Source of the DNA: Manis javanica
Taxonomy: Eukaryota > Chordata > Mammalia > Pholidota > Manidae
Direction: 5' to 3'
Assembly (NCBI RefSeq): GCF_040802235.1
Contig: NC_133170.1
Span: 43,409,501 to 43,473,500 of the forward strand
DNA: 64,000 nt
The notes beneath the pieces were generated by a model. The model was not told the origin of the DNA and did no database searches. It saw nothing but the letters and a program-made list of their open reading frames with translations. How positions within the stretch are numbered: position 1 is the first letter of the stretch; each line of letters opens with the position of its first letter. Made by a program: the position numbers and the translations under genes. Of the stretch, positions 1-61,300 are shown in pieces.

Positions 1-545
1 GAAGCCTTAAAGGGACAGGGACCCTGGTGCTAGGGAGGCAGGGTGGCGGGACTGGTGAGCGGGTGCCTGGGACCAGCGCCTGAGGACAAAAAAAAAAATT
101 ATGTGTTTTTTTTTTTTTTCTGTTCCCTCTCTCATTGCTGCTGTTGTTGTTTTGGTTTGGAGAGTGCTTTTTGGAAGTCTTAAAGGGGCAGGACAGGTCA
201 CTTAGACCAGAGGCAGGGAATCTGGGGATCTCTGGGCACTCTAACCCCCTGGGCAGCAGGGAGCACAGAGGCCCCTTATGGAGATAAATAGCCTCCCAGC
301 CGCTCCCCCTCCAACGGAGCTCCACCATTTTGGAGGAACAGCCCCAGCCAGGCCACGCCCACAGCAACAGTGGAGATAAACCCCATAGCAACCGGGCAGG
401 AAGCAGAAGCCCTGTCTGCACACAGCTGCCCAGCACAAGCCACTAGAGGTCGTTATTCTCCCAGGTGAGGAAGGCCACAAAACAACAAGAAGGGAAGCTC
501 TTCCAGCGGACACTTGTACCAGCTCTGCACACTATCTATATCACC

Positions 546-1419
546 ATGAAAAGACAAAACTACAGGCAGACAAAGATCACAGAGACAACACCTGAGAAGG
601 AGACAGACCTAACCAGTCCTCCTGAAAAAGAATTTAAAATAAACATCATGAACATGCTGACAGAGATGCAGAGAAAAATACAAGAGCAATGGGATGAGAC
701 GCAGAGAAAAATGCAAGAGCAGTGGGATGAAGTCCAGAGGGAGATCACAGATGTCAGGAAGGAGATCACAGAAGTGAAACAATCCCTGGAAGGATTTATA
801 AGCAGAATGGATAAGATGCAAGAGGCCATTGAAGGAAGAGAAGCCAGAGAACAGGAACGTATAGAAGCTGACATAGAGAGAGATAAAAAAACACTAAGAG
901 AACTATGTGACCAAGCCAAAAGGAATAATAATTCGTATTATAGGGATACCAGAAGAAGAAGAAAGAGGAAAAGGGATAGAAAGTCTCTGTGAAGAAATAA
1001 TTGCTGAAAACTTCCCCAAACTGGGGGAGGAAATAATCGAACAGACCATGGAATTACACAGAACCCCCAACAGAAAGGATCCAAGGAGAACAACACCAAG
1101 ACACATAGTAATTAAAATGGCAAGGATCAAGGACAAGGAAAGAGTTTTAAAGGCAGCTAGAGAGAAAAAGGTCACCTATAAAGGAAAACCCATCAGGCTA
1201 ACATCAGACTTCTCGACAGAAACCCTACAGGCCAGAAGAGAATGGCATGATATACTTAATGCAATGAAACAGAAGGGCCTTGAACCAAGGATACTGTATC
1301 CAGCACAACTATCATTTAAATATGATGGCGGGATTAAACAATTCCCAGACAAGCAAAAGCTGAGGGAATTTGCTTCCCACAAACCACCTCTACAGGGCAT
1401 CCTACAGGGACTGCTCTAG
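546..1419 (+). pseudogene. L1-A ORF1 (RNA-binding chaperone), one frameshift
   Basis: The reading frame starts at ATG 546 and runs to 992. A second frame from 907 carries the rest to 1419. They meet at about 925-932, where an AAT-rich stretch appears to have gained one base. The N-terminal part is a Glu/Lys/Gln-rich coiled coil containing a repeated MQEQWDE-type segment. The C-terminal part has the L1 ORF1p RRM and C-terminal domain, with LQARREWHDI and EPRILYPAQLSF recognisable. In L1 this protein trimerises on L1 RNA and is needed for retrotransposition. The frameshift separates coiled coil from RNA-binding domain, so this copy should not make a working ORF1p. Confidence 0.9.
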
Positions 1420-1614
1420 ATGGAAGCACCCCTAAAAAGAGCACAGAACAAAACACACAACATATGAAGAATGGAGGAGGAGGAATAAGAAGGGTGAGAA
1501 GAAAAGAATCTCCAGACAGTGTATATAACAGCTCAATAAGCGAGCTAAGTTAGGCAGTAAGATACTAAAGAAGCTAACCTTGAACCTTTGGTAACCACGA
1601 ATCTAAAGCCTGCA

Positions 1615-4600
1615 ATGGCAATAAGTACATATCTCTCAATAGTCACCCTAAATGTAAACGGACTTAATGCACCAATCAAAAGACACAGAGTAATAGAATG
1701 GATAAAAAAGCAAGACCCATCTATATGCTGCTTACAAGAAACTCACCTTAAACCCAAAGATAAGCATAGACTAAAAGTCAAGGGATGGAAAAACATATTT
1801 CAGGCAAACAACAGTGAGAAGAAAGCAGGGGTTGCAGTACTAATATCAGACAAAATAGACTTCAAAACAAAGAAAGTAACAAGAGATAAAGAAGGCCACT
1901 ACATAATGATAAAGGGCTTAGTCCAACAAGAGGATATAACCATTCTAAATATATATGCACCCAATACAGGAGCACCAGCATATGTGAAGCAAATACTAAC
2001 AGAACTAAAGAGGGAAATAGACTGCAATGCATTCATTTTAGGAGACTTCAACACACCACTCACCCCGAAGGATAGATCCACCGGGCAGAAAATAAGTAAG
2101 GACACAGAGGCACTGAACAACACCCTAGAACAGATGGAACTAATAGACATCTATAGAACTCTACATCCAAAAGCAACAGAATATACATTCTTCTCAAGTG
2201 CACATGGAACATTCTCCAGAATAGACGACATACTAGCTCACAAAAAGAGCCTCAGTAAACTCCAAAATATTGAAATTCTACCAACCAATTTTTCAAACCA
2301 CAAAGGTATAAAAGTAGAAATAAATTCTACAAAGAAAACAAAAAGGCTCACAAACACATGGAGGCTTAACAACATGCTACTAAATAATCAATGGATCAAT
2401 GAACAAATCAAAATAGAGATCAAGGAATATATAGAAACAAATGACAACAACACTAAGCCCCAACTTCTGTGGGACGCAGTGAAAGCAGTCTTAAGAGGAA
2501 AGTATATAGCAATCCAGGCACACCTGAAGAAGGAAGAACAATGCCAAATGAATAGTCTAACATCACAATTATCAAAACTGAAAAAAGAAGAACAAATGAG
2601 GCCTAAAGTCAGCAGAAGGAGGGACATAATAAAGATCAGAGAAGAAATAAACAAAATTGAGAAGAATAAAACAATAGCAAAACCAAGATCTGGTTCTTTG
2701 AGAGAATAAACAAAATAGATAAGCCTCTAGCCAAACTTATTAAGAGAAAAGAGAATCAACACAAATCAACATAATCAGAAATGAGAATGGAAAAATCACG
2801 ACAGACTCCACAGAAATACAAAGAATTATTAAAGACTACTATGAAAACCTATATGCCAACAAGCTGGATAACCTAGAAGAAATGGACAACTTCCTAGAAA
2901 AATACAACCTCCCAAGACTGACCAAGGAAGAAACACAAAAGTTAAACAAACCAATTACAAGCAAAGAAATTGAAACGGTAATCAAAAAACTACCCAAGAA
3001 CAAAACCCCGGGGCCAGACCGATTTAACTCGGAATTTTATCAGACACACAGAGAAGACATAATACCCATTCTTCTTAAACTGTTCCAAAAAATAGAAGAA
3101 GAGGGAATACTCCCAAACTCATTCTATGAAGCCAACATCACCCTAATACCAAAACCAGGCAAAGACCCCACCAAAAAAGAAAATTACAGACCAATATCCC
3201 TGATGAATGTAGATGCAAAAATACTCAATAAAATATTAGCAAACAGAATTCAACAGTATATCAAAAGGATCATACACCATGATCAAGTGGGATTCATCCC
3301 AGGGATGCAAGGATGGTACAACATTCGAAAATCCATCAACATCATCCACCACATCAACAAAAAGAAAGACAAAAACCACATGATCATCTCCATAGATACT
3401 GAAAAAGCATTTGACAAAATTCAACATCCATTCATGATAAAAACTCTCAGCAAAATGGGAATAGAGGGCAAGTACCTCAACATAATAAAGGCCATATATG
3501 ATAAACCCACAGCCAGTATTATACTGAACAGTGAGAAGCTGAAAGCATTTCCTCTGAGATCGGGAACCAGACAGGGATGCCCACTCTCCCCACTGTTATT
3601 TAACATAGTACTGGAGGTCCTAGCCACGGCAATCAGACAAAACAAAGAAATACAAGGAATCCAGATTGGTAAAGAAGAAGTTAAACTGTCACTATTTGCA
3701 GATGATATGATACTGTACATAAAAAACCCTAAAGACTCCACCCCAAAACTACTAGAACTGATATCGGAATACAGCAAAGTTGCAGGATACAAAATTAACA
3801 CACAGAAATCTGTAGCTTTCCTATACACTAACAATGAATCAATAGAAAGAGAAATCAGGAAAACAATTCCATTCACCATTACATCAAAAAGAATAAAATA
3901 CCTAGGAATAAACCTAACCAAAGAAGTGAAAGACTTATACTCTGAAAACTACAAGTCACTCTTAAGAGAAACTAAAGGGGACACTAATAAATGGAAACTC
4001 ATCCCATGCTCATGGCTAGGAACAATTAATATCGTCAAAATGGCCATCCTGCCCAAAGCAATATACAGATTTGATGCAATCCCTCTCAAATTACCAGCAA
4101 CATTCTTCAATGAATTGGAACAAATAATTCAAAAATTCATATGGAAACACCCAAGACCCCGAATAGCCAAAGCAATCCTAAGAAAGAAGAATAAAGTAGG
4201 GGGGATCTCACTCCCCAACTTCAAGCTCTACTACAAAGCCATAGTAATCAAGACAATTTGGTACTGGCACAAGAACAGAGCCACAGACCAGTGGAACAGA
4301 TTAGAGACCCCAGAAATTAACCCAAACATATATGGTCAATTAATATTTGATAAAGGAGCCATGGACATACAATGGCAAAATGACAGTCTCTTCAACAGAT
4401 GGTGCTGGCAAAACTGGACAGCTACATCTAGGAGAATGAAACTGGACCATTGTCTAACCCCATATACAAAGGTAAACTCAAAATGGATTAAAGACCTAAA
4501 TGTAAGTCATGAAATCATTAAACTCTTGGAAAAAAAACATAGGCAAAAACCTCTTAGACATAAACATGAGTGACCTCTTCTTGAACATATCTCCCCGGGC

Positions 4601-5297
4601 AAGGAAAACAACAGCAAAAATGAGCAAGTGGGACTACATTAAGCTGAAAAGCTTCTGTACAGCGAAAGACACCATCAATAGAACAAAAAGGAACTCTACA
4701 GTATGGGAGAATATATTTGAAAATGACAGATCCGATAAAGGCTTGACGTCCAGAATATATAAAGAGCTCACACGCCTCAACAAACAAAAAACAAATAACC
4801 CAATTAAAAAATACGCAGCGGATCTGAACAGACGGTTCTCCAAAAAAGAAATACAGATGGCCAACAGACACATGAAAAGATGCTCCACATCGCTAATTAT
4901 CAGAGAAATGCAAATTACAACTACAATGAGGTATCACCTCACACCAGTAAGGATGGCTGCCATTCAAAAGACAAACAACAACAAATGTTGGCGAGGCTGT
5001 GGAGAAAGGGGAACCCTCCTACACTGCTGGTGGGAATGTAAATTAGTTCAACCATTGTGGAAAGCAGTATGGAGGTGCATCAAAATGCTCAAAACAGACC
5101 TACCATTTGACCCAGGAATTCCACTCCTAGGAATTTACCCTAAGAACGCAGCAATCAAGTTTCAGAAACACAGATGCACCCCTATGTTTACTGCAGCACT
5201 ATTTACAATAGCCAAGAATTGGAAGCAACCTAAATGTCCATTGGTAGATGAATGGATAAAGAAGATGTGGTACATAAACACAATGGAATACTACTAA
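1615..5297 (+). pseudogene. L1-A ORF2 (endonuclease and reverse transcriptase), frameshifted
   Basis: Starting at ATG 1615, the endonuclease domain shows NVNGLN, LQETH and ILGDFN. The usual SDH catalytic triplet reads SNH here, a likely loss of an active-site Asp. The frame ends at 2709 after a small deletion near 2675. The RT part is open from 2882 to 4573 with the FADD catalytic motif at 3695-3706. A run of eight A near 4529-4536 shifts frame again, and the C-terminal Cys-rich domain (about 4985-5060) continues to 5297. At least two frame breaks plus the endonuclease change make this copy inactive, though it is young. Full L1 ORF2p is about 1275 residues; nearly all of that length is present. 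Confidence 0.93.
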
Positions 5298-5799
5298 GCC
5301 ATAAAAAGTGGAAAAATCCAACCATTTGCAGCAACATGGATGGAGCTGGAGAGTATTATGCTCAGTGAAATAAGCCAAGTGGAGAAAGAGAAATACCAAA
5401 TGATTTCACTCATCTGAGGAGTATAGAAACAAAGGAAAAACTGAAGGAACAAAACAGCAGCGGAATTACAGAACCCAAAAATGGACTAATAGGTACCAAA
5501 GGGAAAGGAACTGGGGAAGATGGGTGGGCAGGGAGGGATAAGGGGGGGGAAGAAGAAGGGGGTATTAAGATTAGCATGCATGGGGGGGAGGGAGAAAGGG
5601 GAGGGTGGGCTGCACAACACAGAGAGGACAAGTAGTGACTCTACAACATTTTGCTAAGCTGATGGACAGTAACCGTAATGTGGTTGTTAGGGGGGACCTG
5701 ATATAGGGGAGAGCATAGTAAACATAGTATTCTTCATGTAAGTATAGATTAAAAATTAAAAAAAAAAAAAGAAAGAAAGAAAGAAAAAAAAGGGGGATT

Positions 5800-7278: not shown

Positions 7279-7602
7279 TGTGGGATCCACATATAAATCA
7301 AGTACAAAAATCAAACGAATATTCATATTTGACCTGATTGTTTATAGGTCATAATGCGTGATCAAAACCGAAAGTTTCTGTGATGAATGCCCTTGTACTG
7401 TTCACCATGTAAGAATCTATTCACTATGTAAGAATTCGTTCACCATGTAAGAACTTGTTCGTTATGCTTCAGAAGATTGGAGACTGACGAGAATTAGACT
7501 TGAGATGGATTAATGATTGTTCATTGAGCATTGACCCCCCCTATACTGAATTTTATTGTTGTTAACAACCATTTGATCAATAAATATGAGAGATGCCCTC
7601 TC
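7279..7602 (+). repeat. LTR (U3-R only) of retroposed ERV copy 1
   Basis: The LTR begins TGTGGGATCC directly after a polypurine tract. A TATA-like TATAGG lies at 7343 and AATAAA at 7579. If transcription starts about 25 bases after the TATA, near 7368, then U3 is only about 90 bases and R about 235. Within R a 19-bp unit is repeated three times (7401-7419, 7420-7438, 7439-7457). No U5 is visible in any copy here. Confidence 0.75.
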
Positions 7603-30327: not shown

Positions 30328-30596
30328 GGTTTAATAGCTGTCACAAGAGGTAATAAAACCACAGTAAAGAAACTAGAACATTTAATTACTAAACAAATGC
30401 AAAATCAAATTAACTACCCCAAAAGTCAATCAAGGGATAGACAAAGAGTACAGAATATGATACCCAATATATAAAGAATGGAGGGGAAAGAAACAAGGGG
30501 AAAAAAAACATTTACATAGTGTTTGTAAGAGCATATTAAGTGAGTTAAGCTGGACTCTTAGATAGTAAGGAAGTTAACCTTGAACCTCTGGTAACC

Positions 30597-33500
30597 ATGA
30601 ATCTAAAGCCTGCAATGGCAATAATTACATACCTACCAATAATCACCCTAAATGTAAATGGACTGAATGCACCAATCAAAAGACATAGAGTCACTGAATG
30701 GATAAAAAAACAAGACCCATCTATATGCTGCCTACAAGAGACTCACTTTAAATCCAAAGACATACACAGACTAAAAGTGAAGGGATGGAAAAAGATATTT
30801 CATGCAACTAATTGGGAGAAAAAATCAGGAGTGGCAGTACTTGTATCAAACAAAATAGACTTCAAAACAAAGAAAGTCACAAGAGACAAAGAAGGATATT
30901 ACATAATGATAAAAGGGTCAATCCAACAAGAAGATATAACAATTATAAATATCTATGCACCCAACACAGGAGCGCCTACATATGTGAAACAAATACTAAC
31001 AGAATTAAAAGAGGAAATAGAATGCAATGCATTCATTCTAGGTGACTTCAACATTCCACTCACTCTGAAGGACAGATCAACCAGACAGAAAATGAGTAAG
31101 GAGACAGAGGCACTGAAGAACACATTAGAACAGATGGACCTAACAGACATCTACAGAACTCTACACTCAAAAGCAGCAGGATCCACATTCTTCTCAAGTG
31201 CACATGGAACATTTTTAAGATTAGATCATATACTAGGCCAAAAAAAGACCTTCAGTAAATTCAAAAAAGATTGAAATTGCACCAAACAGTTTCTCAGACC
31301 ACAAAGGTATGAAACTGGAAATAAATTATGCAAAAAAAAAAATCCCACAAACACATGGAGGCTCAACAACATGCTCCTAAATAACCAATTGATCAGTGAC
31401 TAAATATAAACAGAGATCAAGCAATATATGGAGACAAATGACAACAATAATTCAACAATGCAGAATCTGTGGGATGCAGCAAAGGCCATGCTAAGAGGAA
31501 AGTATATTTCAATACAGGCCTACCTCAGAAAAGGAAAGCAATTCCATATGAGCAGTCTAAACTCACAATTAATGAAACTAGAAAAAAAAAGAACAAATGA
31601 AGCCCAAAGTCAGTAGAAGGAGGGACATAATAAAGATCAGAGCAGAAATAAATAAAATCGAGAAGAATGAAACAATAGAAAGAATGAATGAAAGCAGGAG
31701 CTGGTTCTTTGAGAAAATAAACAAAATAGATAAACCCATGGCCAGACTTATCAAGAAAAAAAGGGAGTCTACTCATGTAAATAGAATCATAAATGAGAAA
31801 GGAAAAATCACTATGGAACCACAGAAATACAAAGAATTATTGGAGAATACTATGAAAAATTATATGCTAACAAACTGGATAACCTAGAAGAAATGGAAAA
31901 CTTTCTAGAAAAATACAACCTTCCAAGGCTGACCCAGAAAGAAACATAAAATCTGAACAGACCAATTACCAGCAACAAAATTGAACTGGTAATCAAAAAC
32001 CTACCTAAGAACAAAATTCCTGGTCCAGATGGCTTACTGCTGAATTTTACCAAACATTTAGTGAAGACCTAATACCCATCCTCCTTAGAGTTTTCCAAAG
32101 AGTAGAAAAAGAGGGAATACTTCCAAATGCATTATATGAGGCCAGCATCACTCTAATATCAAAACCAGGCAACAACACCACAAAAAAAGAAAATTACAGA
32201 CCACTATCCCTGATGAACATAGATGCAAAAATGCTCAACAAAATATTAGCAAACCAACTTCAAAAATACATCAAAAATATCATCCACCATGATCAAGAAG
32301 GATTTATTCCAGGGATGCAAGGATGGTATAACATTTGAAAATCCATCATCATCCACCACATCAACAAAAAGAAGGACAAAAACCACATGACCATCTCCAT
32401 AGATGCTGAAAAAGCATTTGACAAAATTCAACATCCATTCATGATAAAAGCTCTCAACAAAAATGGGTATCTAGGGCAATTACCTCAACATAATAAAGGC
32501 CATATATGACAAATCCACAGTCAACATCATACTTTACAGTGAGAAGCTGAAAGCTTTTCCTTTAAGACAAGGATGTCCACTCTCCCCACTTCTATTCAAC
32601 CTAGTACTGGAGGTCTTAGCCACAATAATCAGACAAAAGGCATCCAATTGGCAAGGAAGAAGTTAAACTGTCCCTGTTTGCAGATGACATGATATTGTAC
32701 ATAAAAAACCCTAAAGAATCCACTCCAAAACTACTAGATCAAACATCTGAATTCAGCAAAGTTGCAGGATACAAAATTAATACGCAGAAATCTGTTGCAT
32801 TCCTATACACTAACAATGAACTAGCAGAAAGAGAAATCAGCAAAACAATTCCTTTCACAGTTGCATCAAAAAGAATAAAATACCTAGGAATAAACATAAC
32901 CAAGGAGGTGAAAGACCTATACTCTGAAACTACAAGACACTCATGAGAGAAATTAAAGAAGATACCAATAAATGGAAACACATTCCATGCTCATGGATAG
33001 GAAGAATCAATATTGTCAAAATGGCTATGTGGCCTAAAGCAATCTACAGATTCAATGCAATTCCTATCAACATACCAACAGCATTGTCAACAAACTAGAG
33101 AAAATCATTCTAAAATTCATATGGAACCACAAAAGACCCTGAATAGCTAAAACAATCCTGAGAAAGAAGAATAAAGCTGTGGGGATAATGCTCTCCAACT
33201 TCAAGCTCTACTACAAAGCCACAGTAATGTAGACAATTTGGTACTGGCACAAGAACAGACCCATAGACCAATGGAAGAGACTAGAGAGCCCCTGATATAA
33301 ACCCAAGCATATATGGTCAATTAATATATGATAAAGAAGCCATGGACATACAATGGGGAAAAGACAGCCTCTTCAACAGCTGGTGTTGGCAAATCTGGAC
33401 AGCTACATACAAGAGAGTGAAAATGGATTATTGTTTAACCCATACACAAAGGTAAACTTGAAATGGATCAAAGACCTGAATGTAACTCATGAAACCATAA

Positions 33501-34138
33501 AACTCTTAGAAGACAACATAGGCAAAAATCTCCTGAATATAAGCATGAGCAACTTCTTCCTGAACACATATCCTTGAGCAAGGAAAACAAAAGCAAAAAT
33601 GAAGTCATGGGACTACATCAAACTAAAAAGTTTCTGTATGGAAAGGACACCATCACAGAACAAAAAGGCATCCTACAGTATGGGAGAATATATTTGTAAA
33701 TGACATATCCAACAAGGGGTTAACATCTAAAATATATAAAGAACTCACACACCTCAACACCCAAAAAGCAATTAATCCAATTGATATGAAGAGACAGTTC
33801 TCCAAAGAAGAAATTCAGATGGCCAACAGGCACATGAAACGATGCTCCCCATCACTAATCATCAGGGAAATGCAAATTAAAACCACAATGAGATATCACC
33901 TCACACCAGTAAGGATGGCCAGCATCAAAAAGACTAAGAACAACAAATGCTGGCAAGAATGTGGAGAAAGGAGAACCCTCCTACACTGCTGGTGGGAATG
34001 TAAGCTCATTTAACCATTGTGGAAAGCAATATGGAGGTTCCTCATAAAAATAACAATAAAAAATACCATTTGACCCAGGAATACCACTCCTTGGAATTTA
34101 CCAAAGAATACAACTTCTCAGATTCAAAAACACATATG
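30597..34138 (+). pseudogene. L1-C ORF2, multiply broken
   Basis: The frame opens at ATG 30597 and holds the endonuclease to 31274 (NVNGLN, LQETH, ILGDFN visible) before a frameshift. RT and C-terminal fragments follow in changing frames (31597-31887, 32689-32946, 33353-33577, 33786-34013). FADD is kept near 32679-32690. The last part of ORF2 continues beyond the provirus at 37142-37391. At least six breaks make it non-functional; it is clearly older than L1-A. Confidence 0.9.
34133..34138. repeat. provirus target-site duplication, left
   Basis: CATATG directly before the 5' LTR, repeated at 37136-37141 directly after the 3' LTR. Six bases is the usual size for class II (beta-type) retroviral integrases. 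Confidence 0.95.
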
Positions 34139-34472
34139 TGTTGGCAGCCATGCTCAGAAAATAGCGCCCCATGCAGGGCAGCCGGAAGGCCCCGAACTTC
34201 CTAATGACAAATCATCCCACACCACTAAACTACATGCTAATTGCGCCTTGGCATAAGGACCAATGAGACCCACCAAATGGTTATGCTAATAAGGCATATG
34301 GAGCCGCACCAACCAGGTCAGAGCATGAGAACTATATAAGCAAGCCTCTCCTTCCCCTCTGGGTCCTGCCCAACTCATTTGTTTCACAAAGAGCTGAAGA
34401 ATAAAGCTTTCTGCAGAAGAATCCTGCTGTTGTTGCGTGCTGTTCTTGCCGGCGAGGACGGGGCGCGCGACA
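34139..34472 (+). repeat. provirus 5' LTR (334 bp)
   Basis: Starts TGTTGGCAGCC and ends GCGCGACA. It contains a CCAAT box (about 34260), TATATAA at 34333-34339 and AATAAA at 34400-34405, so R is short. U5 is GC-rich with several CpGs (34437-34470) still intact, which fits youth. No difference from 36802-37135 was found when read side by side. Confidence 0.96.
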
Positions 34473-34474
34473 AG

Positions 34475-34492
34475 TGGTGCCGAAACCCGGGA
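34475..34492 (+). promoter_or_regulatory. provirus primer binding site, tRNA-Phe
   Basis: TGGTGCCGAAACCCGGGA, two bases after the 5' LTR, is an 18/18 complement to the 3' end of mammalian tRNA-Phe including CCA. This tRNA is used by IAP elements; most other betaretroviruses use tRNA-Lys. Confidence 0.92.
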
Positions 34493-34642
34493 ACCAGAAC
34501 ATCACCGGCACAGGGAGGACCCTTCAGACATCTGGAGAGGATTCAGAACTGCAGGTCAGAAGAAAGCCCGGAGGGGTAAGTTCCGAGAGGCCCCTGCTTT
34601 TTAGGATAATGGTTGATGGTTCTCTGTAAATAAGGAGGCACC

Positions 34643-36094
34643 ATGGGGAATGCACCGTCATTAGTCACGGCGCTGCAGACAGCTCTCAAAGAGTGAAACT
34701 TGAAGGTCTCCAGCAAAGTCTTAGGATCTTTTGTGAAGGAGATAGACCATGTGGCCCCCTGGTTCATTTGTTCAGGGTCCCTCTCAATCCCGAGCTGGGA
34801 CAAACTGGGGAAAGATCTTGATAGAGAGGAGGAGGAGGGTAGCCTGAGGGGAGGCACCAGGCCCCTCTGGAAACTGATTAGAGCTTGTCTGCAAGATGAG
34901 AGATGTGAAAAGGTAATAAAAGAAGGTCAGAGAGCATTGACAGATATCCAAGAGAGCATGTCAGAAACGGAACGGGAAACAGAGAGCGCGCGCGGCCGAA
35001 AAAAGGCCACAAAAACGAAGGTAAAGAAACCTCAGAGTGAGGGAGAAAGCCCGCCTAGGGCAAAAGCGAAAGAGCCCCGAGAAGCGAGTGACGATCGCCT
35101 CGGAGAAAATAGTAAATACCCCTGGAAAGAGTTGAGGGACCTCCAACTCTCCAATAGGGAATCTGAGGAGGAATTAACGTCCGCAGAGGAAGGGGAAGAA
35201 AATAAAACCGCAGAGTGTAGAAGTAAGGGAACCAGCAAAGTTGAAAAGCGGACCAAGGAAAAAATGAAAGCAGGGTGTCCCCCGACGCCCTTTGCCCCGC
35301 CACCTTACGTGAGTGGCGCACTCTCCTTTTGCCACCCAGATACTCTTCAGGCAATTAGACAAATGTTTCCTGTATTTGAGGATAATGGCGTACGCTCTCA
35401 CCAGCCCCTGAGCCATAAACAAGTTAAGGAGTTAGCAGAATCCGTTCGGGCTTATGAAGTCAGTGCCAACTACACCATAGCACAAGTTGAGAGATTAACA
35501 GAGACAGCCATGACACCCGCAGACTGGCAATATGTAACTAAGGCATGCCTTTCTAGTATGGGGCAATACATAGAATGGAAGGCATTGTGGCATGATATCA
35601 GTATGACCCAGGCACGCGCAAACGCGGCCGAAGGACAGCCTGCATGGTCATATGATACGCTGACGGGCCAAGGACAGTGGGTAGCCAACCAGACCGCCTT
35701 CCCCTTACAGGTATACGCACAAATAAACACGTGCGCTGCCAAGGCATGGAAAGCCCTCACCAACAAAGGAGAAGTATCAGGCAATTTGACAAAAATTATT
35801 CAGGGGCCGAGCGAGCCATTTTCTGACTTTGTCGCTCGTATGATGGAGGCCGCAGGCAGAATATTTGGAGATCAGGAACAAGCGATGCCCCTGGTAGAGC
35901 AATTAGTATTTGAACAATGTACCAAGGAATGCAGACAGGCGATAACACCCTGGAAACAGAAAGGGATACACGCTTGGTTGAAAGCCTGTAGAGAAATAGG
36001 AGGGCCACTCACCAACGCGGGCCTAGCCGCAGCCATATTACAGAGCCACAAACAAGCCAGGATCACTAACAGAAGTATTAAATGCTTTCACTAA
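34643..36094 (+). pseudogene. provirus gag, premature stop and no nucleocapsid
   Basis: ATG 34643 opens with MGNAPS, a fitting N-myristoylation signal, but an in-frame TGA at 34694-34696 ends it after 17 codons. Beyond the stop the same frame is open for 465 codons to TAA 36092-36094. Readable in order: a beta-type matrix domain with an aromatic 'APWFICSG' patch; a long charged Glu/Lys/Arg linker (about 34960-35270); a PPPY late-domain motif at 35297-35308; a capsid domain; and the major homology region at 35801-35860. No CCHC zinc knuckles are present, because the deletion that joins env removes nucleocapsid. Gag assembles virus particles; this copy could make at most an unmyristoylated, truncated form if translation restarted downstream. 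Confidence 0.92.
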
Positions 36095-36455
36095 TCTGTC
36101 ACGAGGCCTGTCCCAGTATCTTTCAGGAAACTGGTCCCAGGACTTTGATGGAGCACTAGAAGAACTGCGGCGAGAAATAATCCACATCAACTCCACCCGT
36201 CTAGATATCTCCGTAGCAGAAGGACTCTCTTCCTGGTTCCTCAGAGCTCTCTCCCACGTCAAGGAGTGGGCGGGCATGGCTGGGATGGGCGTGTTCATGC
36301 TTGGAGGTCTCATGCTCCTACTCTGGTTGTTATGCAGACTCCGCAATCAACATAAGAAGGACAAGGTGATCCTTGCTCAAGCCCTAATGGCGATAGACAT
36401 TGGCGCCTCTCCCCAAGTGTGGCTCAATATGCTTAAGAAGGAAGCTCAGCTTTAG
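36066..36455 (+). pseudogene. provirus env transmembrane subunit, C-terminal remnant
   Basis: A frame of 129 codons plus TAG, offset from gag and overlapping its end by about 29 bases. It holds a helical ectodomain segment with N-glycosylation sequons, a Trp-containing membrane-proximal part, a hydrophobic anchor (about 36275-36335) and a basic cytoplasmic tail. No start codon, surface subunit, fusion peptide or furin site remains. The gag-to-env joint near 36055-36066 is the scar of a deletion that took nucleocapsid, protease, pol and most of env. Confidence 0.85.
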
Positions 36456-36801
36456 CTTGAGGTAGCTCTTGCACCCTGAGCCCATGTGGCACTGCACCAG
36501 GCCCGAGTACCTCAATGCTTAATCACAGCTTTCTTTAAGAAGCTCATGGTGCAAGAGGGTTGAGAAAAAGGGTCCAAACCCTTTGTACCAAGCGGTCCCA
36601 ACCCCAGCCAGAGGATGCGAGGCAAAGCACTGCAAGAGGTCTTGGACCCCTCTGAGAGGCATGCCTGACTGCATAGGGGTAGATGCCCAGAACCCCTCTC
36701 CAAAAAGGGGGCATCAGGAAGTATGATGGAGGTCAGGCCTCTGTCTCCGCCTCTGCTGGCAAGTTCCGCCTTGAGCTTCTGTTAGACAAAAAAGGGGGAG
36801 A
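36456..36801 (+). other. provirus post-env segment and polypurine tract
   Basis: A non-coding stretch of about 346 bases between env and the 3' LTR. It contains a perfect 7-bp hairpin, AAAGGGT-CCAA-ACCCTTT (36567-36584), and other short inverted repeats such as AGCTTTCTTTAAGAAGCT (36526-36543). This is where simple betaretroviruses and IAPs carry RNA export elements, so such a role is possible but unproven. AAAAAAGGGGGAGA (36788-36801) is the polypurine tract. Confidence 0.7.
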
Positions 36802-37135
36802 TGTTGGCAGCCATGCTCAGAAAATAGCGCCCCATGCAGGGCAGCCGGAAGGCCCCGAACTTCCTAATGACAAATCATCCCACACCACTAAACTACATGC
36901 TAATTGCGCCTTGGCATAAGGACCAATGAGACCCACCAAATGGTTATGCTAATAAGGCATATGGAGCCGCACCAACCAGGTCAGAGCATGAGAACTATAT
37001 AAGCAAGCCTCTCCTTCCCCTCTGGGTCCTGCCCAACTCATTTGTTTCACAAAGAGCTGAAGAATAAAGCTTTCTGCAGAAGAATCCTGCTGTTGTTGCG
37101 TGCTGTTCTTGCCGGCGAGGACGGGGCGCGCGACA
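36802..37135 (+). repeat. provirus 3' LTR (334 bp)
   Basis: Same length and, by eye, same sequence as the 5' LTR, including TATATAA and AATAAA. It is followed at once by the CATATG duplication and resumed L1-C ORF2 sequence. Confidence 0.96.
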
Positions 37136-37141
37136 CATATG
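37136..37141. repeat. provirus target-site duplication, right
   Basis: CATATG, the partner of 34133-34138. L1-C ORF2 reads on without loss when one copy is removed. Confidence 0.95.
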
Positions 37142-37743
37142 CACCCCTATGTTTATCACAGCACTAATTACAATAGCCAAGATATGGAAGCAACCTAAGT
37201 GTCCATCAGTAGATGAATGGATAGAGAAGAGGTGGTACATATATACAATGGAATACTATTCAGCCATAAGAAAGAAACAAATCCTACTATTTGCAACAAC
37301 ATGGATGGAGCTGGAGGATATTATTCTCAGTGACATAAGCCTGGTGGAGAAAGACAAGTGCCAAATGATTTCCCTCATTTGTGGAGTATAACAATGAAGC
37401 AAAACTGAAGGAACAAAATAGCAGCAGGAACAAAACTCGGAGACTCCAAGAAAGGACCATTGTTTACCAAAGGGGTGGGATGTGGGAGGGAAGGTAGGGA
37501 GGGAGGGAGAAGGGGATTGAGGGATATTATGCTTAGTATACATGGTGTGGGAGTCACGGGGAAAACAGTGAAGCACAGAGAAGGCAAATAGTGAATCTGT
37601 GGCATCTTACTACACTAATGAACTGTGATTGCATTGGGATATGGGTGGGGACTTGATAATATGGGTAAATGTAGTAACCACATTGTTTTCTCATGTGAAA
37701 CCTTCGTAAGAGTGTATATTAATACCTTAATAAAAATTTTAAG

Positions 37744-38807: not shown

Positions 38808-39220
38808 CCCTCTTACAGCACTAAACTATGTTTTCCACCTTTATCTTGCACCTACCTACCACTTCAGCATTTTATTAAAAATAATAATAATAATAATAAG
38901 GGAGAAATGTGGGATTCACATATAAATCAAGTATAAAAATCAAATGACCTGATTGTTTATAGTTCATAATGCATGATCAAAACCGAAAGTTTCTGTGATG
39001 ACTGCCCTTGTACTGTTCACCATGTAAGAACTTATTCACTATGTAAGAATTTGTTCACCATGTAAGAACTTGTTTGTTATGCTTCAGAAGATTGGAGACT
39101 GTTGAGAATTAGGCTTGGGGTTGATTAATGATTGTGTATTGAGTCCCCTATACAGAATTTTATTGTTGTTAATAACCATTTGATCAATAAATATGAGAGA
39201 TGCCCTCTCAAAAAAAAAAA
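38808..39220 (+). mobile_element. retroposed retroviral LTR transcript, copy 2, with TSD
   Basis: It starts about 105 bases before the LTR in the same 3' internal sequence as copy 1, includes the (TAA)n purine tract and the whole U3-R, and ends after AATAAA in about 12 A's. It is flanked by AAAAAGATTACTAAATG on the left (38791-38807) and AAGATTACTAAATG after the poly(A) (39221-39234). The A-rich start of the duplication is the usual L1 endonuclease target. A copy with U3 at its start cannot be a normal provirus; it is reverse-transcribed RNA inserted by L1. Confidence 0.88.
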
Positions 39221-39234
39221 AAGATTACTAAATG

Positions 39235-41403
39235 GAATCTACTCCCTTCTCTTCACTGTTGCACTTCTTAAGGAAAAAGAAAATCCACAATAATGTTCTC
39301 TATTTTCCCATTCATTTTTCAGTATATTGAAATCTGAGTTCTCCCTCCATTATGCCATTCTAACAATGTTGCTCATTTCCTTAATATCCAAAGCTAATCT
39401 TTATTCAATTTACTCTATCAGAGATAACACTGCTAAGTCACTTTCTCCTTGAAACTCTCTTCCCCATCCTATCACACTTAAGAAAGGAGGGTCTGAGTAG
39501 GAGGAGGAAGCAGAGGTTTTAAATTGCCTGTGTTGGACACCAAAAGCTGGTTGGTGGTATGCCTGTGTGTGAGATCAGGTCTGAGGCCACAGACTGCAGA
39601 GTCAATGCAGAAAGGAGAAGCAGCCATGGTCAAACGGAAAGAGTGGCTGGGGAAATCAAATATGGGAACCAGAAAGCAAAGTGGGTCAAAGACCAAAGAA
39701 CAGCCTGAGTGCAAAGGGGAACAATGTCGGCAGATGGCAGAAAAAATTCTGCAGACTCCCTATGACCACTTCAGCTGAATTGTATTATCAAATCTCAGTG
39801 TATAGAATCTCTTATTCTAAGAATATCTTAAGGATTCTTCCTTTATGTTCCTCACTACCACCATTTCAGACTCACCTCTTTCTTCTCCATTCTTTCTACT
39901 ATATAGTCATCCAGCCTTTCATTTATCAAACATATACTTACTGTGTGACCACTGTATGCCTGGCATTGTGATATACCATGGAGTTATATGATAAATATGA
40001 TAAAGTCCTTGTCCTCAAGAACTCACCTAGCTGACATTTCTTTCTCTAACCATCTTCATACATGTGCTTCCCAAGGTCTTGCCTAGATCTTCTCCCATCC
40101 CCACCCACGGCTTCAACTGTCTCACATTACAGACTTCTGCATTTGATGTCCTATAGTTAACTCAACTTTTTCATTTTATATCCTTTAGATGTCTCAAATT
40201 CAGTAGGTCCAATACCAGATACTTATTTGCCACCAAACTGGAAGAGATCATTACCAACCCAGAAATTCCTAATTCATCCATCACCTTCCCTTTTTCAACA
40301 CATAGATCTACAACTGGATGGCAATTTTAACAATATCATCTCTTAAAAAGTTCTCAAAATTGTACTCTCCTCTCTATCCTAACTCTACATTAACTTCAGA
40401 CCATCATTACTCTGGAAAAATAGCCTTCTAATTTTTTCCTGTCACCCAATACTCCCCCTTCCAATCCACCATTACTACTGATAGAGAGAGTATTATCTCT
40501 TTAAAAGGAAAATTTTATTTATTTATTCCATCATTAAGATTAAGATCCACCATTGCTTCTATATTCATGTTTTACCCCTGGAACTTTAGATTCTCCCATA
40601 TATTTCTTCTTCATCTTCATCTCTTAAAACTATGCTGACTAAACAGAATTGTTTATATCTTCCAAAAACAAGATGCTTTGATCATACTCTATGCCTTCCT
40701 TTGCCCAAGATGCTGTAACACTTCCATGTGACAAATACAGTCACCCTTCAAAATTAGCTCAAATATTACTTGCTTTGTAAAGCCTTTCCCATCCCTTCCA
40801 AACAGAGTTGTCCAATCTTTCCACTGAGCTCTGTGCTTAGAGTGTACTTCTACTAAGGGAGAATCACACTTACTTTCTATTCATTTATACATCCACATAG
40901 TATTTGTTTCATGATCTGTCTCCAACACTGGTGTGCAGGCCTATACCTAGAGGGTAGGGATATGAGCTTTTTGTTTTCTATTGCCTTGTACCCAGCCTAA
41001 TGGCGACCACAAGTCCTTGCTGAAAGAATGAATTAATTCACCCAATAAATAATTTAAGGAGAAAAGAAACATATTTCTTTTTCTAGTCATTACATGAATA
41101 TTAGGATACAAAGCACACCTCAGTGAGGTTTGATAAAATACAGATTGAGGAATGAAATGAAGATCAAAGGAGAAAGGAGGGTGAAATCAAGAGGAACCAC
41201 AGAAAAAGCTGGTATTTACACAAGCAGTGAATTGGAGATTGAACAGTAACAGGTGGAAGGAGTCCGCTGGGATAAGGAATATCAGAATCCCAATGAAATC
41301 TTGCAGTTTGACTCTACAAATCCAAACAAGTCTCTCAATTTATCATCTTCATAAAGACAAGGCTATACATAGTTTCTAGGGAAAGTACTAGAAAAGAACT
41401 TAC
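39235..41403. other. EFHB intron 1, 5' part: unique sequence and L2
   Basis: About 39920-40025 and 40730-41050 resemble L2/MIR-type ancient repeats, the latter with the L2-like end 'agggtagggatatgag...ttgctgaaagaatgaat'. The rest up to the exon 1 donor at 41403 shows no recognised feature. Confidence 0.5.
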
Positions 41404-42330
41404 ACTTGGCCAGTCAGGCGTCCGATCCAAAAATTTCCCAGAGTATATGGGTCTGATTCGATCTGGAGGTTCTACTCCTGCTTCAGCCTCTTTTTTCTTT
41501 TCAGGGTGTAGAGCAACCTGGTGTTCAGGAGGTTCTATCACCAAGCCCGTTTGGGGATCTGTGGTCCTGGTTTCATCCAGCTCCTCTGGTTGGAGCAGCC
41601 CAGTGTCCACCTCCACACGAGGCTTCATTTCTGCACTGGGCTCCATCACCATACAGGTCGGCTGTGTTTCCAGTTCTGGTCTAGGTTCCATACCCAAGGC
41701 AGGCTGCTTCCACTCTGAAGTCCCCAACCCTTCAGGGGCACCAGCCACAGGACCTCTCCCTCTCCCAAGAGACTGCGGCCTCTCACACACCATGCTCACA
41801 GGAGGCTGGGTCATCCTCCCAGGAGAACACCCTGCCAGAACACATTCAGTTTCTAAACCGACTCTTCCTGGCAGCATGCCCAGGGAAGGTTTTGTTTCCC
41901 GTGAGGTTAAGACCCTGTTGGCTCCCAAATTACTCCTCTCCATGAGGGTCCTCGAAATATTCTGTCTTTTTAATCTCAGTTCGAGCTCCTCACTCAATGG
42001 AGATTTTCTTTGTGATGATGCTATCCTCGCTTCATATTTATTATTAACCGACAGGCTCTCCCTCCTGGGAGAATCTTTTCCTAATCCCTTTCTGAGCCCC
42101 AACTCCGTCGGAGATTTTATTCCCACGAAGACACTCCTCTCTCCTAAATCATCCTTTCCTTCCCGCGGGAGCCCGACCTCCGCACGAGAGGGAGATTTCC
42201 TCCCAGACACCCTCTTTCCTCCAAGGGCGTTCATCTCTAAGGGAAAAGCTGTACCTGGCTGGAGGGAAGTTTCCAAACCCTTGGGAGTCCCCAACCCTTT
42301 GAGGGACCCCATTCTCAAGAAGGAGCACAT
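41404..42330 (-). CDS. EFHB: EFHB exon 1 (first coding exon)
   Basis: From ATG 42330 the frame is open for 309 codons to the donor CCAAGT|GTAAGT (intron starts 41403). The last residues, RIRPIYSGKFLDRTPDWPS, match human EFHB as I recall it, and the next residue (Ala) is supplied by exon 2. An in-frame TAA lies just upstream (about 42370-42372), so translation starts here or at the next ATG (42312). The encoded N-terminal region is Pro/Glu/Gly/Ser-rich, low in hydrophobics and probably disordered. It has loosely repeated 'P-x-L-E-x-x-P' phrases and no EF-hand. EFHB (CFAP21) sits inside ciliary doublet microtubules. Exons 1-5 in the window give about 475 codons; the C-terminal EF-hands are off to the left. 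Confidence 0.92.
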
Positions 42331-42413
42331 CCCCGCTCGGCCTCCCAGCCACCACTTCCTGCCTACCAATTAACACGTAGCGGAGTTCACAGAAGTCGGA
42401 GGTCTGTTTACCG

Positions 42414-45400: not shown

Positions 45401-46160
45401 CTTAATTTTGTTTTGGGTTCAGTTGTCTGGCCAGGAGATTGCCTGTTGCATGAGATTCACCCAAAGCAGCCTGCCCTCTGTAGGTGTGCAGTGCAGAGTG
45501 ATGTCAAAGTCTGGGGTTGTCTCACTGGAATCCTGCTTACCAACTCAGCTTCTGAGCCAGCCAGCACGTTAGAATACCATTTCATCACCAAGTGACTTTG
45601 GACAAATTACACAACCTCTGTGCCTCAAATTCTTTACCTGTAGAACAGGCACGCCTCATTCAATAATTCCACAACCATGACTGAAGACTCCTGGCTGCCA
45701 GGCACTATCTGGACACGGCGGCTAGGACCACTTTGGGGACTTAGAAATACTCTAATAGAGAAAGGCGAGGCAGTTAGTCTCAGAGTGAAAAACTCGTAGT
45801 TAAGAATAAAACACAAGTCCTATAAAGCTCTCAGTAGAGTGACTCGCGAGGCAAACTGAATGAAAGCTAGATATAATTTTTAGATTTGCCCCTCCCCACC
45901 CAAAACAGATACTCTCAATAAAAGCATATTATTAAGATTTTCCTCGCCTTAAGGACAGCTTCTGGAGTGAGTAGGGTCTTATCTTCCACCCAGGGGTAAA
46001 TACCACTTACCGGCCTTTACAGACCCACCCATCCCCAGGGACACATTGGGGTCTCTCTCGTGCCAGGGGAGTCCCCCCAAAAACCCCGTAACAGAGTTGC
46101 CAAGGATGGGCTGTTGCAGGGTAAGCTAAGGGGGACTGTGAGCTAATATTCACAGAGGGC
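42428..46160. other. EFHB-RAB5A intergenic region
   Basis: No gene recognised. About 43250-43510 looks like an ancient L2/MIR-type repeat ('tctattgggtccctattttgtg...ggaatttatattctag'). About 45540-45650 is a plus-strand MIR ('agtgactttggacaaattacacaacctctgtgcctc'). The minus-strand frame at 42415-42777 has no recognisable similarity and may be 5' UTR or chance. Confidence 0.5.
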
Positions 46161-46169
46161 ACTTCGCCG

Positions 46170-47330
46170 CCTCACCGACGGTGGGAGCAACTAATCCAAG
46201 CTCTCGCCGGCTTCCCCGAAACTCGAAGAGCGAAGGAGACGCGCGAGCGCACTGACACTGCGCCGAGACCACCGCCTCCGGAGAACAATGGCGGCGGCGA
46301 GGGCGGGGTCGCGCACCCCGGGCGACGGAGGTGGCTGGACGCGCCCCACCTGCTCGCAGAGAGCACGTGACACACCTGCCCCAGCTGGGGGGGCGGAGGG
46401 GGCTTTGAAGGGGGAAGGGGGAGGGGATGGAGCGGCCGAACTGGTGACGATAGGAAGTGACGAAGGGGCGTAGTTCTCTACGTGCAGCGACGTGGCGGCG
46501 AGGCCGGCGCCGCGCGGCGGAAGTGGCTCCCGCGCTGGGACCTGAGTGTTAGTGTTTTGGTTCGCGAAGCAGTCGGCGGCCGGCCTAAGGGGAGGAGGCG
46601 GAGGAGGGAGGAGGAAGAAGAATTGGTCGGAACTGGAGCGCCGGCGTCGGCGGAGGAGGAGAAAGAGACAGGCGGAGCGGAGAGAGGCGGAGACGGAGGC
46701 CGACGGGGGCGGCACCACGGCGCAAGCCCCGCGCTGACCAGTCTGAGTGGAGCGGCGCACGGAGGAGACGCGCTGCCACAGCATCAGCTTCAGCCTCCTG
46801 TCAGACTGCGTCTGGAACCTGCTGCCGGGAAGCGTCAGCCCCGCGGCTCCGCGCCCTGCGGTCTCAGGTAACAAGCCGTGCCCCGCTGCTCAGGGCGGGC
46901 CGGGACCCCAGGTATCCGCCGTCCCTAGCTCGCGCCTTCTCCCTCTCGTGCACCGGCGCCCCAGCCCAGAGAGCTGTCTGATCCGGCACCTCGTCCTGCC
47001 AGCGCTGTTGACTCATCCATCAGGGGGCTCTGGGGACGATTTGGGGACTGGCTGAGCGAGCGACGGGTGTCACCCTCTTCCCTTCTCAAGATGGCGCCGT
47101 GAAAGAGTGCTGGAGGCCGCGGTTCCGCCTGGCCCTGTGCTGGCAGTCCTCGGGGGATTCCCGGCCACAGCCGAGCCAGGTTCAGGGGAGGAGGGCAGGA
47201 AAGATGGCTACGAGGCCTGGCGGGTCCGGCCCCAGGCGGTCCGGTGTCTGGTATCAGTTACCCAGGTGCTCTCCGCGGAGGAACCAGGCCCCCAGCAGGT
47301 GTGAATTTGGGGAGCTCCGTGCCTTCGACT
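46170..47330. promoter_or_regulatory. RAB5A: CpG-island promoter of RAB5A
   Basis: A GC-rich, CpG-dense block surrounded by AT-rich DNA, with no obvious TATA box. Visible motifs: CACGTGAC E-box (46364-46371), AGGAAGTGACG (about 46453-46463, ETS plus half CRE), GCGGAAGTGG (46517-46526, ETS), CAAGATGGCGCC (47087-47098) and AAGATGGCTA (47201-47210), both YY1-like. This is a typical housekeeping promoter, in keeping with RAB5A being expressed in most cells. The long open frames in this block on both strands are GC-content shadows. Confidence 0.9.
46540..46867 (+). other. RAB5A: RAB5A exon 1, 5' UTR (non-coding)
   Basis: The 3' end is well placed: GTCTCAG|GTAACA gives a donor at 46868. The 5' end is a guess from the position of the ETS motifs. 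No ATG was seen between about 46540 and 46867, so there is no upstream reading frame. It is GC- and purine-rich (GGAGGAGG tracts at 46590-46700), which could fold stably in the leader. Confidence 0.75.
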
Positions 47331-49835
47331 ACCAAAGATGGGTAATGGAAGGAGAAGGAGGCTTGTCAAAATAGGCTGTCTAGAGATTCTTGTCTCATCT
47401 ATGGAAGGTGGTGAAGCAGCTACAGGAACTCAGCACAGCTAGGCCGCTGAACTCTCTCAGTTGGTGGAGACCATTACACATGCTCTGCTGTTCTCTTCGC
47501 TGGAAGCTGCTCACTCCTCAAGATTTTCAGACTTTTTAAGCTCTGAACGTCATAATTCAAACAATTAGTTTTTGTCCTTTGCTTATGTGGAGATGTGGAG
47601 TCAGAGTTGGACCATTGCCTTTCATGTAACTGGTAGGAAAAAAACACTTGTACACCACTGTGATAATTCAGGACAGCTGAGAAACTTTAAGTGTAAAATG
47701 GGGATGATATTAGAGCTCGTAGGGTTGCTGTAAGCAAAAAATCGTTGAATAGTGCTTGGCACTAGTAAGTGCTCAGTAAATGTTAGTTGTTAGTACAATT
47801 TTGGTCAAAGAACATTCAGAAGAACATTAACTATAAAATGCCAGTTATTTTCAAAAAATTAAAAATACATTTTATGCAAAATATTTATTTATCAAGGCAA
47901 GTTTCAGTAAATACAAATGAATGGACATAATTTTTTACCTTAATGTTATGCTGTGTGTAATTTGTTTTCTGTTGGAGAGCCTTGGGAGGAACTATAATCC
48001 TAATAGCCTTTAAACCTAAAAAGGCAAGCTAAGTCGTAAGTTTTTAAAAATGGGAATCTGATGTTTTCCCTGTAATTTTGGTAGTATGGAAATTGGGTGT
48101 ATATTGTCCTTGATGAGTAATTCAGATTGCTGCTTTGTTGGTAATCAGACAACTGGGAAGTGTATAAATTGGTATTGTATGTAGTATCTAGAGATGTACT
48201 GGTGCATTTTAAGTCTGCATGACTGTTCATACTTGGTCATTATTTCACCAAGCATCTGCTTTCATTGCCAATTTTTAATCCCTGTTACATGTTGGACACT
48301 GTACTAGAGATTTTTTACATACATTTTCTAATTTAATTCCCACAGCAGCTATGTAAGTTAGATATTCTGAAAGTAGAGACTGGAAATGAAAGACCTTGCT
48401 CTGGCAGAAATGGGTATAGCCAGCCAGGATTAGGTCCCCAAATCTGGTATGTTTTTAAGGGGGTGGAAGGATACTTGTGGGAATTGGAGCATTTTTTATT
48501 AATTTTTTAAAAATACATGGAAGTGGGAGGAATGGTATAATGAACTCATCACCTAGCTTCATTTATGGCCAGTTTTGTTTTATTTACATCGCCATTGCTT
48601 GGAAGCCACACAGACATACCATTACATTTGTAACTACTTCAGTTTGTATTACTAAAAGATAAGGACTTCTCAAAGCTGCTGTTTAGATAAGGCAGAGGTG
48701 ATATGACTGTTCAAATGTAAGGCCTCATGGATATGTTTATTAATGAATTCATTGTCAGGAGGGACCTTTATATAAACTCATTTCATGTCGAAGGCAAATT
48801 TCCTATATTGTATAACAGTGATTTTAGGGAGGGAATCATCAGATTTAATATTCTCAGGGAACATGAGCACATTTTGATAAAAGATGGGAGAAAACTATTA
48901 TGATTGACTTGTGAGTACACTGGACAAGGATTCTTGAAATGTTTGCAAATTCCTTTGAGATTGAAAATTAATGTTACTAGACAATAACACATAGAAATAG
49001 CCATCCAAGGTAGTTTTTTCTAAATGTGTTAATACAAGATAATATGTTTATTTACTTGTTAGCCCCCAAACTGCAGAAAAGTTTAAATGAATACTAATAA
49101 GCTCACCACATAGGGATGCAGTTAACACTTCCATCTATGATGTACTTGAGCACATGAGGAAATAGTTTGAAGTCTTTTTTAACCACTAGACACACAAAAG
49201 TGGGAGCCATGAACTATTTGTTGCTTCAAAATTACCATTAATTAAAAAGCATGTACAATTTAACAGAGGCCTTCAAATAATAATAGTCAACATTTATTGA
49301 GCTCTTACATGTTCTAGGATTTGTTCTAAGAGCTTTCCAATTGTTAATTTTCTTCAAAACTATTTTATCTCCAGTAGTCTGTCTCCACAACCTGAACTCT
49401 TTGAGTCAAAACTCTGGTTGCCTGGGTTGAAAGTTATCTGCAGCTTTGTCAGAGTAACTCCGTGACCTCAGTCAAGTTACTTAATCTCTCTGTGCCTGTT
49501 TCCTCATTTTGAAGGATTGTAATAGTCTTAACTTTATAGGATCTTTGAATGGCAATGTTCATACTTGAACTACCTGGCACAAAGAGATGACTCTTTAATA
49601 AAGGTTAGCTTAAAAAAACTTCAAGCCCAGAAAATTAGAGCAGGAATTTTGGCTCAAATTTCATTCCTTTACATTATTTCATTACAAAAGTAGTGAATTA
49701 AGCTGAAAGAGGTTATTATTGTCCTACAATAATATGTTACAGGCAAAATTTACTAAAGTGACTGGTATTAGAAATAAGAGATTAGTTTTGTTTTACTGAT
49801 TTATATATTTAATTCTTTATTTTGTTTCTTCATAG
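47331..49835. other. RAB5A intron 1
   Basis: The intron (46868-49835) starts within the CpG island and ends at the acceptor TTTGTTTCTTCATAG. MIR pieces: about 47690-47795 (+), 48285-48445 (-), 49275-49360 (-) and 49385-49560 (+). 48490-48650 resembles an old L1 3' region. No exon recognised. Confidence 0.65.
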
Positions 49836-60419: not shown

Positions 60420-61300
60420 ATGAAGAAGTGTCCTCATTTTTATAGGCTGTTGGATCATTCCATTGCATAGAACATACCAATGTATATATGTAGTCATTTC
60501 CATAGTTTTTGGCTTGCATAGAACATACCAATGTATATATCTAGTCGTTTCTGTAGTTTTTGGTTTGTATACTGGTATTTTTGAGTACTAACACTGCTGC
60601 AGTGAATAATTCATAGTCATTTGTCATACATTCCAAGTATTTCTGTAGTGTAAATTCCTAGAAGTTGATCACTGTGTCAAAGATTATATACGTTGTAATT
60701 ATGAAAAATGTTTCCAGACTGCCCTTAACCAACAATGCACAGAGTGCCTATTACCCTACTTTACTAACTTGAGGTATTATCATACATGTAGATCTTTGCC
60801 ATTTTTATGTTTTGATCTCTGCATTTTTTTTTTTGAGAGGGCATCTCTCATATTTAGTGATCAAATGGTTGTTAACAACAATAAAATTCTGTATAGGGGA
60901 CTCAATGCACAATCATTAATCAACCCCAAGCCTAATTCTCAACAGTTTCCAATCTTCTGAAGCATAACGAACAAGTTCTTACATGGTGAACAAGTTCTTA
61001 CATAGTGAATAAGTTCTTACGTGGTGAACAGTGCAAGGGCAGTCATAACAGAAACTTTCGGTTTTTGATCTCTGCATTTTTTTATGTACATTTTTCCCAT
61101 GTTATGGGCAAGGTCGAGCATCTTTTCATATTTTAGACTGAGTTTCTTTTCCTGTGAACTATTTATGACAATATTTCTATGTATATTCATTATATTAATC
61201 ATACTATTGTATTTCATTTCATTTATTGATAAAGTTCACAGTATTGTACTCATGTTTATTTTAGTAACCACTTGTCTTATTACTATTCATATGTTTATTG
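60420..61300 (-). repeat. old L1 fragment, interrupted by retroposed LTR copy 3
   Basis: Reads like the diverged C-terminal/3' part of an ancient L1 ('gtaaattcctagaagttgatcactgtgtcaaa', 'gactgcccttaacc', 'gagcatcttttcatattttag'). A 51-base tandem duplication lies at 60465-60566. The young insertion at 60824-61061 splits it. Confidence 0.6.
60824..61061 (-). mobile_element. retroposed retroviral LTR transcript, copy 3 (R only), with TSD
   Basis: Minus-strand copy: poly(T) at 60824-60834, then the reverse of the LTR R region back to CCGAAAGTTTC at 61061. TTTTGATCTCTGCATTTT occurs on both sides (from 60810 and from 61063), a target-site duplication of about 18-20 bases. There is no U3 or U5. 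The 5' edge matches position 7368 of copy 1, about 25 bases after a TATA-like box, so it may be the actual transcription start. The signal AATAAA has become ACTAAA. The 19-bp triple repeat is kept. Confidence 0.88.

Follow-up and report, generated by a model that had tools for sequence, protein, structure and literature searches.

A young, internally deleted IAP-family provirus in a pangolin genome, probably copied in trans

In a window of 64,000 nucleotides of the Manis javanica genome (the whole stretch of DNA that was analysed), we identified a provirus that is very probably a young, non-autonomous member of the IAP family of pangolins (class II, probably IAPE-like), copied in trans and derived from a rodent-linked source. 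The provirus measures just 2,997 bp, a point absent from the initial annotation of this DNA, and reads, from 5' to 3', LTR, primer site, leader, gag, the end of env, polypurine tract and LTR (Table 1). Nucleocapsid, protease, polymerase and most of env are missing. The element has retained the sequences needed in cis for copying (the LTRs, primer site, leader and polypurine tract), while its own coding capacity was lost with the missing genes and with a stop early in gag. Given this lost coding capacity and the early gag stop, mobilisation in trans is most likely, with an RNA that would have been packaged, reverse-transcribed and integrated by the Gag-Pol of a full-length relative. The copy landed in an old L1 within intron 1 of EFHB, most likely within about the last 2 My, and its family may have reached pangolins from a rodent IAP lineage or from a fairly recent common source, a relationship that is supported by the trees described below, its direction being the more tentative part.

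Structure, integration site and age of the provirus

The initial annotation had reported a 334-bp LTR pair without mismatches, CpGs included, and a perfect 6-bp CATATG duplication. Both observations hold: when the two LTRs were aligned, as the annotation had proposed, 334/334 bases were identical in a side-by-side comparison (34139 against 36802), all 12 CpGs of each LTR were common to both, and the duplication was found intact on either side of the element, where a random 6-base match would have a probability of 2.4e-4. The boundaries of the repeat lie exactly at TG...CA, and the adjoining base differs on the left and on the right. The element therefore shows the paired TG...CA LTRs and short target duplication of an LTR provirus, as well as a primer site after the 5' LTR and a polypurine tract before the 3' LTR. 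Two L1 pieces abut at the insertion point, and an empty site reconstructed from the flanks and one CATATG (400 bases) is 83-87% identical to other L1 pieces, with no gap at the insertion point in 4/4 pieces tested within the window. As other L1 copies are unbroken across this point, we consider this a true and clean integration.

Table 1. Features of the provirus and its surroundings, in positions of the window
Feature	Position	Strand	Basis
Target-site duplication CATATG, left copy	34133..34138	+	sequence
5' LTR, 334 bp, TG...CA; TATATAA at 34333, AATAAA at 34400	34139..34472	+	
Primer binding site TGGTGCCGAAACCCGGGA, 18 bases, 2 bases past LTR	34475..34492	+	
GGTAAGT, putative major splice donor in leader	34575..34581	+	consensus match only
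gag start, MGN..S (myristoylation-type) N-terminus; in-frame stop at codon 18	34643..34696	+	
Remaining gag, one open frame, 464 aa from first listed start 34700	34697..36094	+	
Internal join of gag to env transmembrane sequence; gag frame ends KCFH-stop	36089..36093	+	
C-terminal end of env transmembrane protein, 120 aa and stop	36093..36455	+	P0121 homology
Polypurine tract AAAAAAGGGGGAGA, adjoining 3' LTR	36788..36801	+	
3' LTR, same sequence as 5' LTR	36802..37135	+	base-by-base comparison
Target-site duplication CATATG, right copy	37136..37141	+	sequence
L1 copy split by the provirus; 78-82% to L1 at 1-5600	30443..37553	+	
EFHB (CFAP21) first coding exon, 344-aa frame	41335..42369	-	PDB EFHB chains
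Later EFHB exons	~13152-13078, 12640-12485, 11785-11606, 9676-9560	-	EFHB probe

Between the LTRs, the 2,329 inner bases are taken up by gag, the end of env and short untranslated segments, and no further plus-strand frame of at least 130 aa was found inside the element besides these two. The N-terminus of the window Gag reads MGNAPSLV, and its frame encodes, in order, Gag_p10/MA (PF02337, 1.4e-13), a linker, the CA N-domain (PF00607, 6.8e-33) and the CA C-domain (PF19317, 1.2e-14), without nucleocapsid: gag is interrupted within the first nucleocapsid Cys-His motif, near 36090. The env end contains one strongly hydrophobic span of 19 residues, and its first in-frame ATG does not occur before 36276. 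Its sole protein match, from 17 candidates scored, is P0121 (125 aa; 51% identity, 59/116 residues, E 8.2e-30), with homology that begins just past the join, where the first complete env codon lies (36093). Against PDB the env end gave two weak matches only (E 0.43 and 1.4) and against Pfam a single sub-threshold match, as did the gag pieces and env end together against NCBIfam. With Rfam, 0 matches were found in the whole window and 0 in 34100-37180 at E up to 1, ARAGORN found no tRNA, and folding of 36480-36720, before the 3' LTR, in search of an export-type RNA element returned an ordinary stability (z -0.12).

The provirus lies antisense in intron 1 of EFHB. The first coding exon of this gene was recognised by comparison of its 344-aa frame with PDB (4 EFHB sequences with E of 0.01 or less, the best at 4.4e-110), and four later pieces follow in order when aligned to an EFHB probe, the first of these alignments having a stop at its outer edge. 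By human synteny, RAB5A is presumably the neighbour of EFHB. The stretch 46001-48000 has a G+C content of 57% and long open frames on both strands, and is perhaps a CpG-island promoter next to EFHB. A 19-bp minisatellite of about 3 copies occurs at 7399-7460, 39014-39074 and 60969-61030; these sites are three copies of one repeat, in each of which a similar tail precedes an A-run, probably a host L1 3' end or a SINE. Nothing indicates a host function of the provirus.

To date the insertion, we recomputed the earlier arithmetic of 1 difference per 0.75 My at 2e-9, which is correct. At assumed rates of 2-2.2e-9 per site per year, 0 differences in 668 LTR bases give a 95% upper bound of 2.0-2.25 My, and an insertion 1 My old would have a probability of 0.23-0.26 of showing no difference. 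An age below about 1 My, as the initial annotation had put it, is thus fair as a likely value but does not stand as a firm limit. When CpG sites are set to mutate 10x faster, the bound becomes 1.24 My and the probability of 0 differences after 1 My falls to 0.09; a rate of 4.5e-9 gives a bound of 1.0 My. The ratio of observed to expected CpG is 0.51 for the element and 0.50 for its internal region, against 0.02-0.13 in four flanking stretches, and this retention is an independent sign of youth. At the assumed rates, the provirus was inserted within about the last 2 My (95%). Polymorphic ERVs with identical LTRs are known from both M. javanica and M. pentadactyla, in a survey that required intact genes (PMC10435555). 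The provirus has the identical LTRs of an autonomous invading ERV (ERVi of that source), but not the intact gag, pro, pol and env.

Relatives within the IAP family

The initial annotation had suggested an IAP-like class II element with a tRNA-Phe primer site in a genome other than that of a rodent, and the CA matches, the pangolin Gags and the L1 sequences all bear this out. Retroviruses of this type are known mainly from mice and rats. Compared with PDB, CA matched 148 sequences at E up to 1, of which the best was 6hwi (4.1e-37), which we take to be mouse IAP, followed by HERV-K (3.5e-24). The element thereby combines the two features by which we assigned it to the IAP family, a CA of IAP type and a primer site (at 34475) that we assume to be of the tRNA-Phe type. 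A protein search with CA matched 347 Gags; among the best 120 of these 347, those with a name are mostly 'igE-binding protein-like', and CA identity is 98% for P0001, 94% for P0003, 93% for P0002, 84% for P0004 and 79% for P0005, P0006 and the Rattus norvegicus proteins P0007 and P0008. P0002 and P0003 are 'igE-binding protein-like' Gags of Manis pentadactyla and the closest named sequences among the matches listed, and the eight listed cetacean rows show a CA identity of 57-64%. The Gag of P0001 differs from that of the window at only 5/464 residues (99% identical) and has its nucleocapsid. Besides the stop, three Gag residues are private to the window copy among the compared relatives (P0003 lacks one of these sites), which suggests some wear in this copy or its parent. 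As for the L1 at 1-5600, its ORFs are long but broken, with ORF2 pieces of 382 and 609 aa. Among the best 120 of 2011 matches (7979 candidates scored), the Manis javanica protein P0204 matches the 609-aa piece at 90% identity across 63% of that piece, and because it is partial it ranks only 83rd by E-value; the other 119 rows are at most 80% identical. Together with the Manis Gags, this match points to a pangolin host, probably Manis.

For the placement of the element among these relatives, a CA tree was built from 86 rows, namely the window, 84 of the 120 matches (36 near-identical ones were dropped) and, as outgroup, a HERV-K whose branch is very long. The window and P0001-P0005 form a clade of six rows with a support of 100/100; its named neighbours are Phodopus and Rattus, with other rodents and Cynocephalus further in. 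We also analysed a tree of 33 rows (22 named rodents, five cetaceans, the window and P0001-P0005, with nine named rows, three each of Microcebus, Cynocephalus and Phocoena, and all other unnamed rows set aside), on which an AU test rejects the 22 rodent rows as one clade (p 0.00125). In the 86-row tree, Microcebus and Cynocephalus are likewise placed among rodents, meaning that pangolins are not the only hosts with such a cross-order placement. Transmission of IAPs across orders has indeed been proposed in earlier work (PMC4643047). The viral contigs that we scanned gave no match to the CA peptides of the window, 18 pattern-matching stretches with the Gag alignment, none of which was confirmed, and 0 matches to the 18-base primer site; in the open-licence literature, we found no paper on pangolin IAPs.

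The gag-env join and alternative explanations

The join between gag and env recurs in a second pangolin protein. P0002 has 482 residues and ends in ...IKCFH at the same codon as the window frame, the only Gag with a KCFH end among the 120 matches listed. In spite of this common end, the two joined Gags are not each other's closest relatives: the window differs from the unjoined P0001 at 5/464 residues and from the joined P0002 at 56/463, while P0002 differs from the unjoined P0003 at 5/275. At 18/19 informative gag sites, the window pairs with P0001 and P0002 with P0003, the exception being the join residue itself. In a gag tree calculated without the join codon, a clade of window and P0002 is rejected by the AU test (p 4.9e-11), and the pair of window and P0001, which has a weak support of 97/0 in the CA-only tree, is fully supported (100/99). 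This pairing of joined with unjoined Gags leaves two readings: two separate origins of the join, which would point to splicing, or an exchange of gag through recombination.

A single deleted genome may have arisen in the pangolin lineage and later swapped its gag with full-length copies by template switching, an explanation whose chances of being right or wrong we consider evenly balanced. It accommodates a P0002 of M. pentadactyla that ends at the same codon and residue, even though the joined copies pair with unjoined ones, and recombination between competent and defective ERVs of cattle has been called pervasive (PMC10924933); it does require crossing-over near the join in one or more of the lineages. 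Alternatively, a donor within the nucleocapsid region of gag could have been spliced to an acceptor in env, and the resulting RNA packaged, copied and integrated separately in two lineages. This we regard as rather unlikely, although it is consistent with the KCFH end of both P0002 and the window frame, and with the informative sites and AU test that divide the joined copies between lineages. The usual consensus on the exon side of a splice donor is MAG, to which a donor right after TTTCA, where gag ends, would fit at 0/3 positions, and it is because of the weakness of this implied donor that we favour recombination over splicing. In addition, P0002 is a single database protein, the model of its gene may already include a splice, and recombination would be expected to yield the same trees. 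MLV does provide a precedent, in the form of a spliced RNA with its donor in gag that is packaged, reverse-transcribed and integrated (PMC2925334). A more far-reaching version is in our opinion doubtful: RNA spliced from the gag nucleocapsid donor to env would have entered the germline by reverse transcription time and again, and proviruses with this join would have arisen independently in two or more pangolin IAP lineages of a rodent-derived virus.

The common end of P0002 also bears on the assembly, as a full-length provirus might have been collapsed into LTR, gag and env. Such an artefact is extremely improbable, seeing that P0002 is encoded on a 110-Mb contig of M. pentadactyla, that there is no N within the window and that the target-site duplication is perfect. 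An older insertion with LTRs homogenised by gene conversion would escape our dating, since LTR identity alone is no bar to an older age. However, conversion of the LTRs would have left the internal region untouched, and CpG is retained there as well, in contrast to the flanks; the few Gag differences from P0001 likewise argue against this explanation, which is very unlikely. Finally, the IAP lineage could have descended vertically from an ancestor that rodents and pangolins share, with no cross-order transfer, and over-sampling of rodents in the databases may exaggerate the nesting of the window clade among rodent IAPs. We find this improbable given the nesting itself, the youth of the insertion and a CA that is closer to the two Rattus norvegicus rows than to the cetacean ones. 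A recent copy of an IAP with a rodent-linked source remains our preferred reading.

Comparison with known systems and implications

By analogy, full-length relatives would have mobilised the provirus in trans, as in the case of the 1-Delta-1 IAPs of mouse and the D-type ERVK of cattle. The former are likewise class II IAPs and a common deleted form that is copied in trans, in a host with approximately 1000 IAPs with identical LTRs and in which most listed germ-line insertions are intronic (PMC6466679). Their deletion, however, spans 1.9 kb of gag and pol, leaving a Gag-Pol fusion, whereas the pangolin provirus lacks everything from the nucleocapsid through most of env and retains the env end. 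The D-type ERVK[2-1-LTR] of cattle is also defective and internally deleted, and is thought to be trans-mobilised by competent kin (PMC10924933), but it belongs to another family, measures 6.8 kb and is active today.

The combination of an IAP-type Gag with env sequence is reminiscent of mouse IAPE, but of its own env the pangolin provirus has just the last 120 residues. IAPs have been described as lacking env and a myristoylation signal, and IAPEs as having env (PMC9412291). The MGN..S start is found in the window, P0001, P0002, P0004 and P0005, and 27 of 116 rows fit this pattern overall (23 others). With regard to the join, the SD' RNA of MLV and its retroelement SDARE similarly connect a site inside gag to one downstream of pol and keep both LTRs (PMC2925334), but these belong to a gammaretrovirus with known splice sites, while splicing of the window element is hypothetical and its acceptor would fall inside the TM region.

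Among pangolin ERVs, a parallel is ERV-Alpha-Mpen of Manis pentadactyla, which has a Phe primer site, ERV2-group LTRs and kin in M. javanica, but is described as full-length, was placed between alpha- and betaretroviruses and was dated to 1.41-3.47 My (PMC12584738). It is the stated exception to a Cys-His box and PPPY rule for pangolin ERVs (PMC12584738), whereas P0001 has both the Cys-His box and the PPPY motif. Copies under 4 kb were left uncounted in that study, and the words IAP, intracisternal and rodent are absent from its main text (PMC12584738). Although filed as alpharetrovirus-like, ERV-Alpha-Mpen likely belongs to the family of the window provirus and may be its full-length IAP relative.

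Taken at this strength, an IAP-type virus has very probably moved recently in a non-rodent host, the pangolin, by way of a defective copy, and surveys that require intact genes or copies over 4 kb would miss such an element. If the repeated splicing that we consider doubtful were true, the provirus would be the germline equivalent, in a rodent-derived virus of IAP type, of the SD' retroelement of MLV. In either case, the common join offers a clean test between a repeated origin from spliced RNA and one deleted ancestor followed by recombination.
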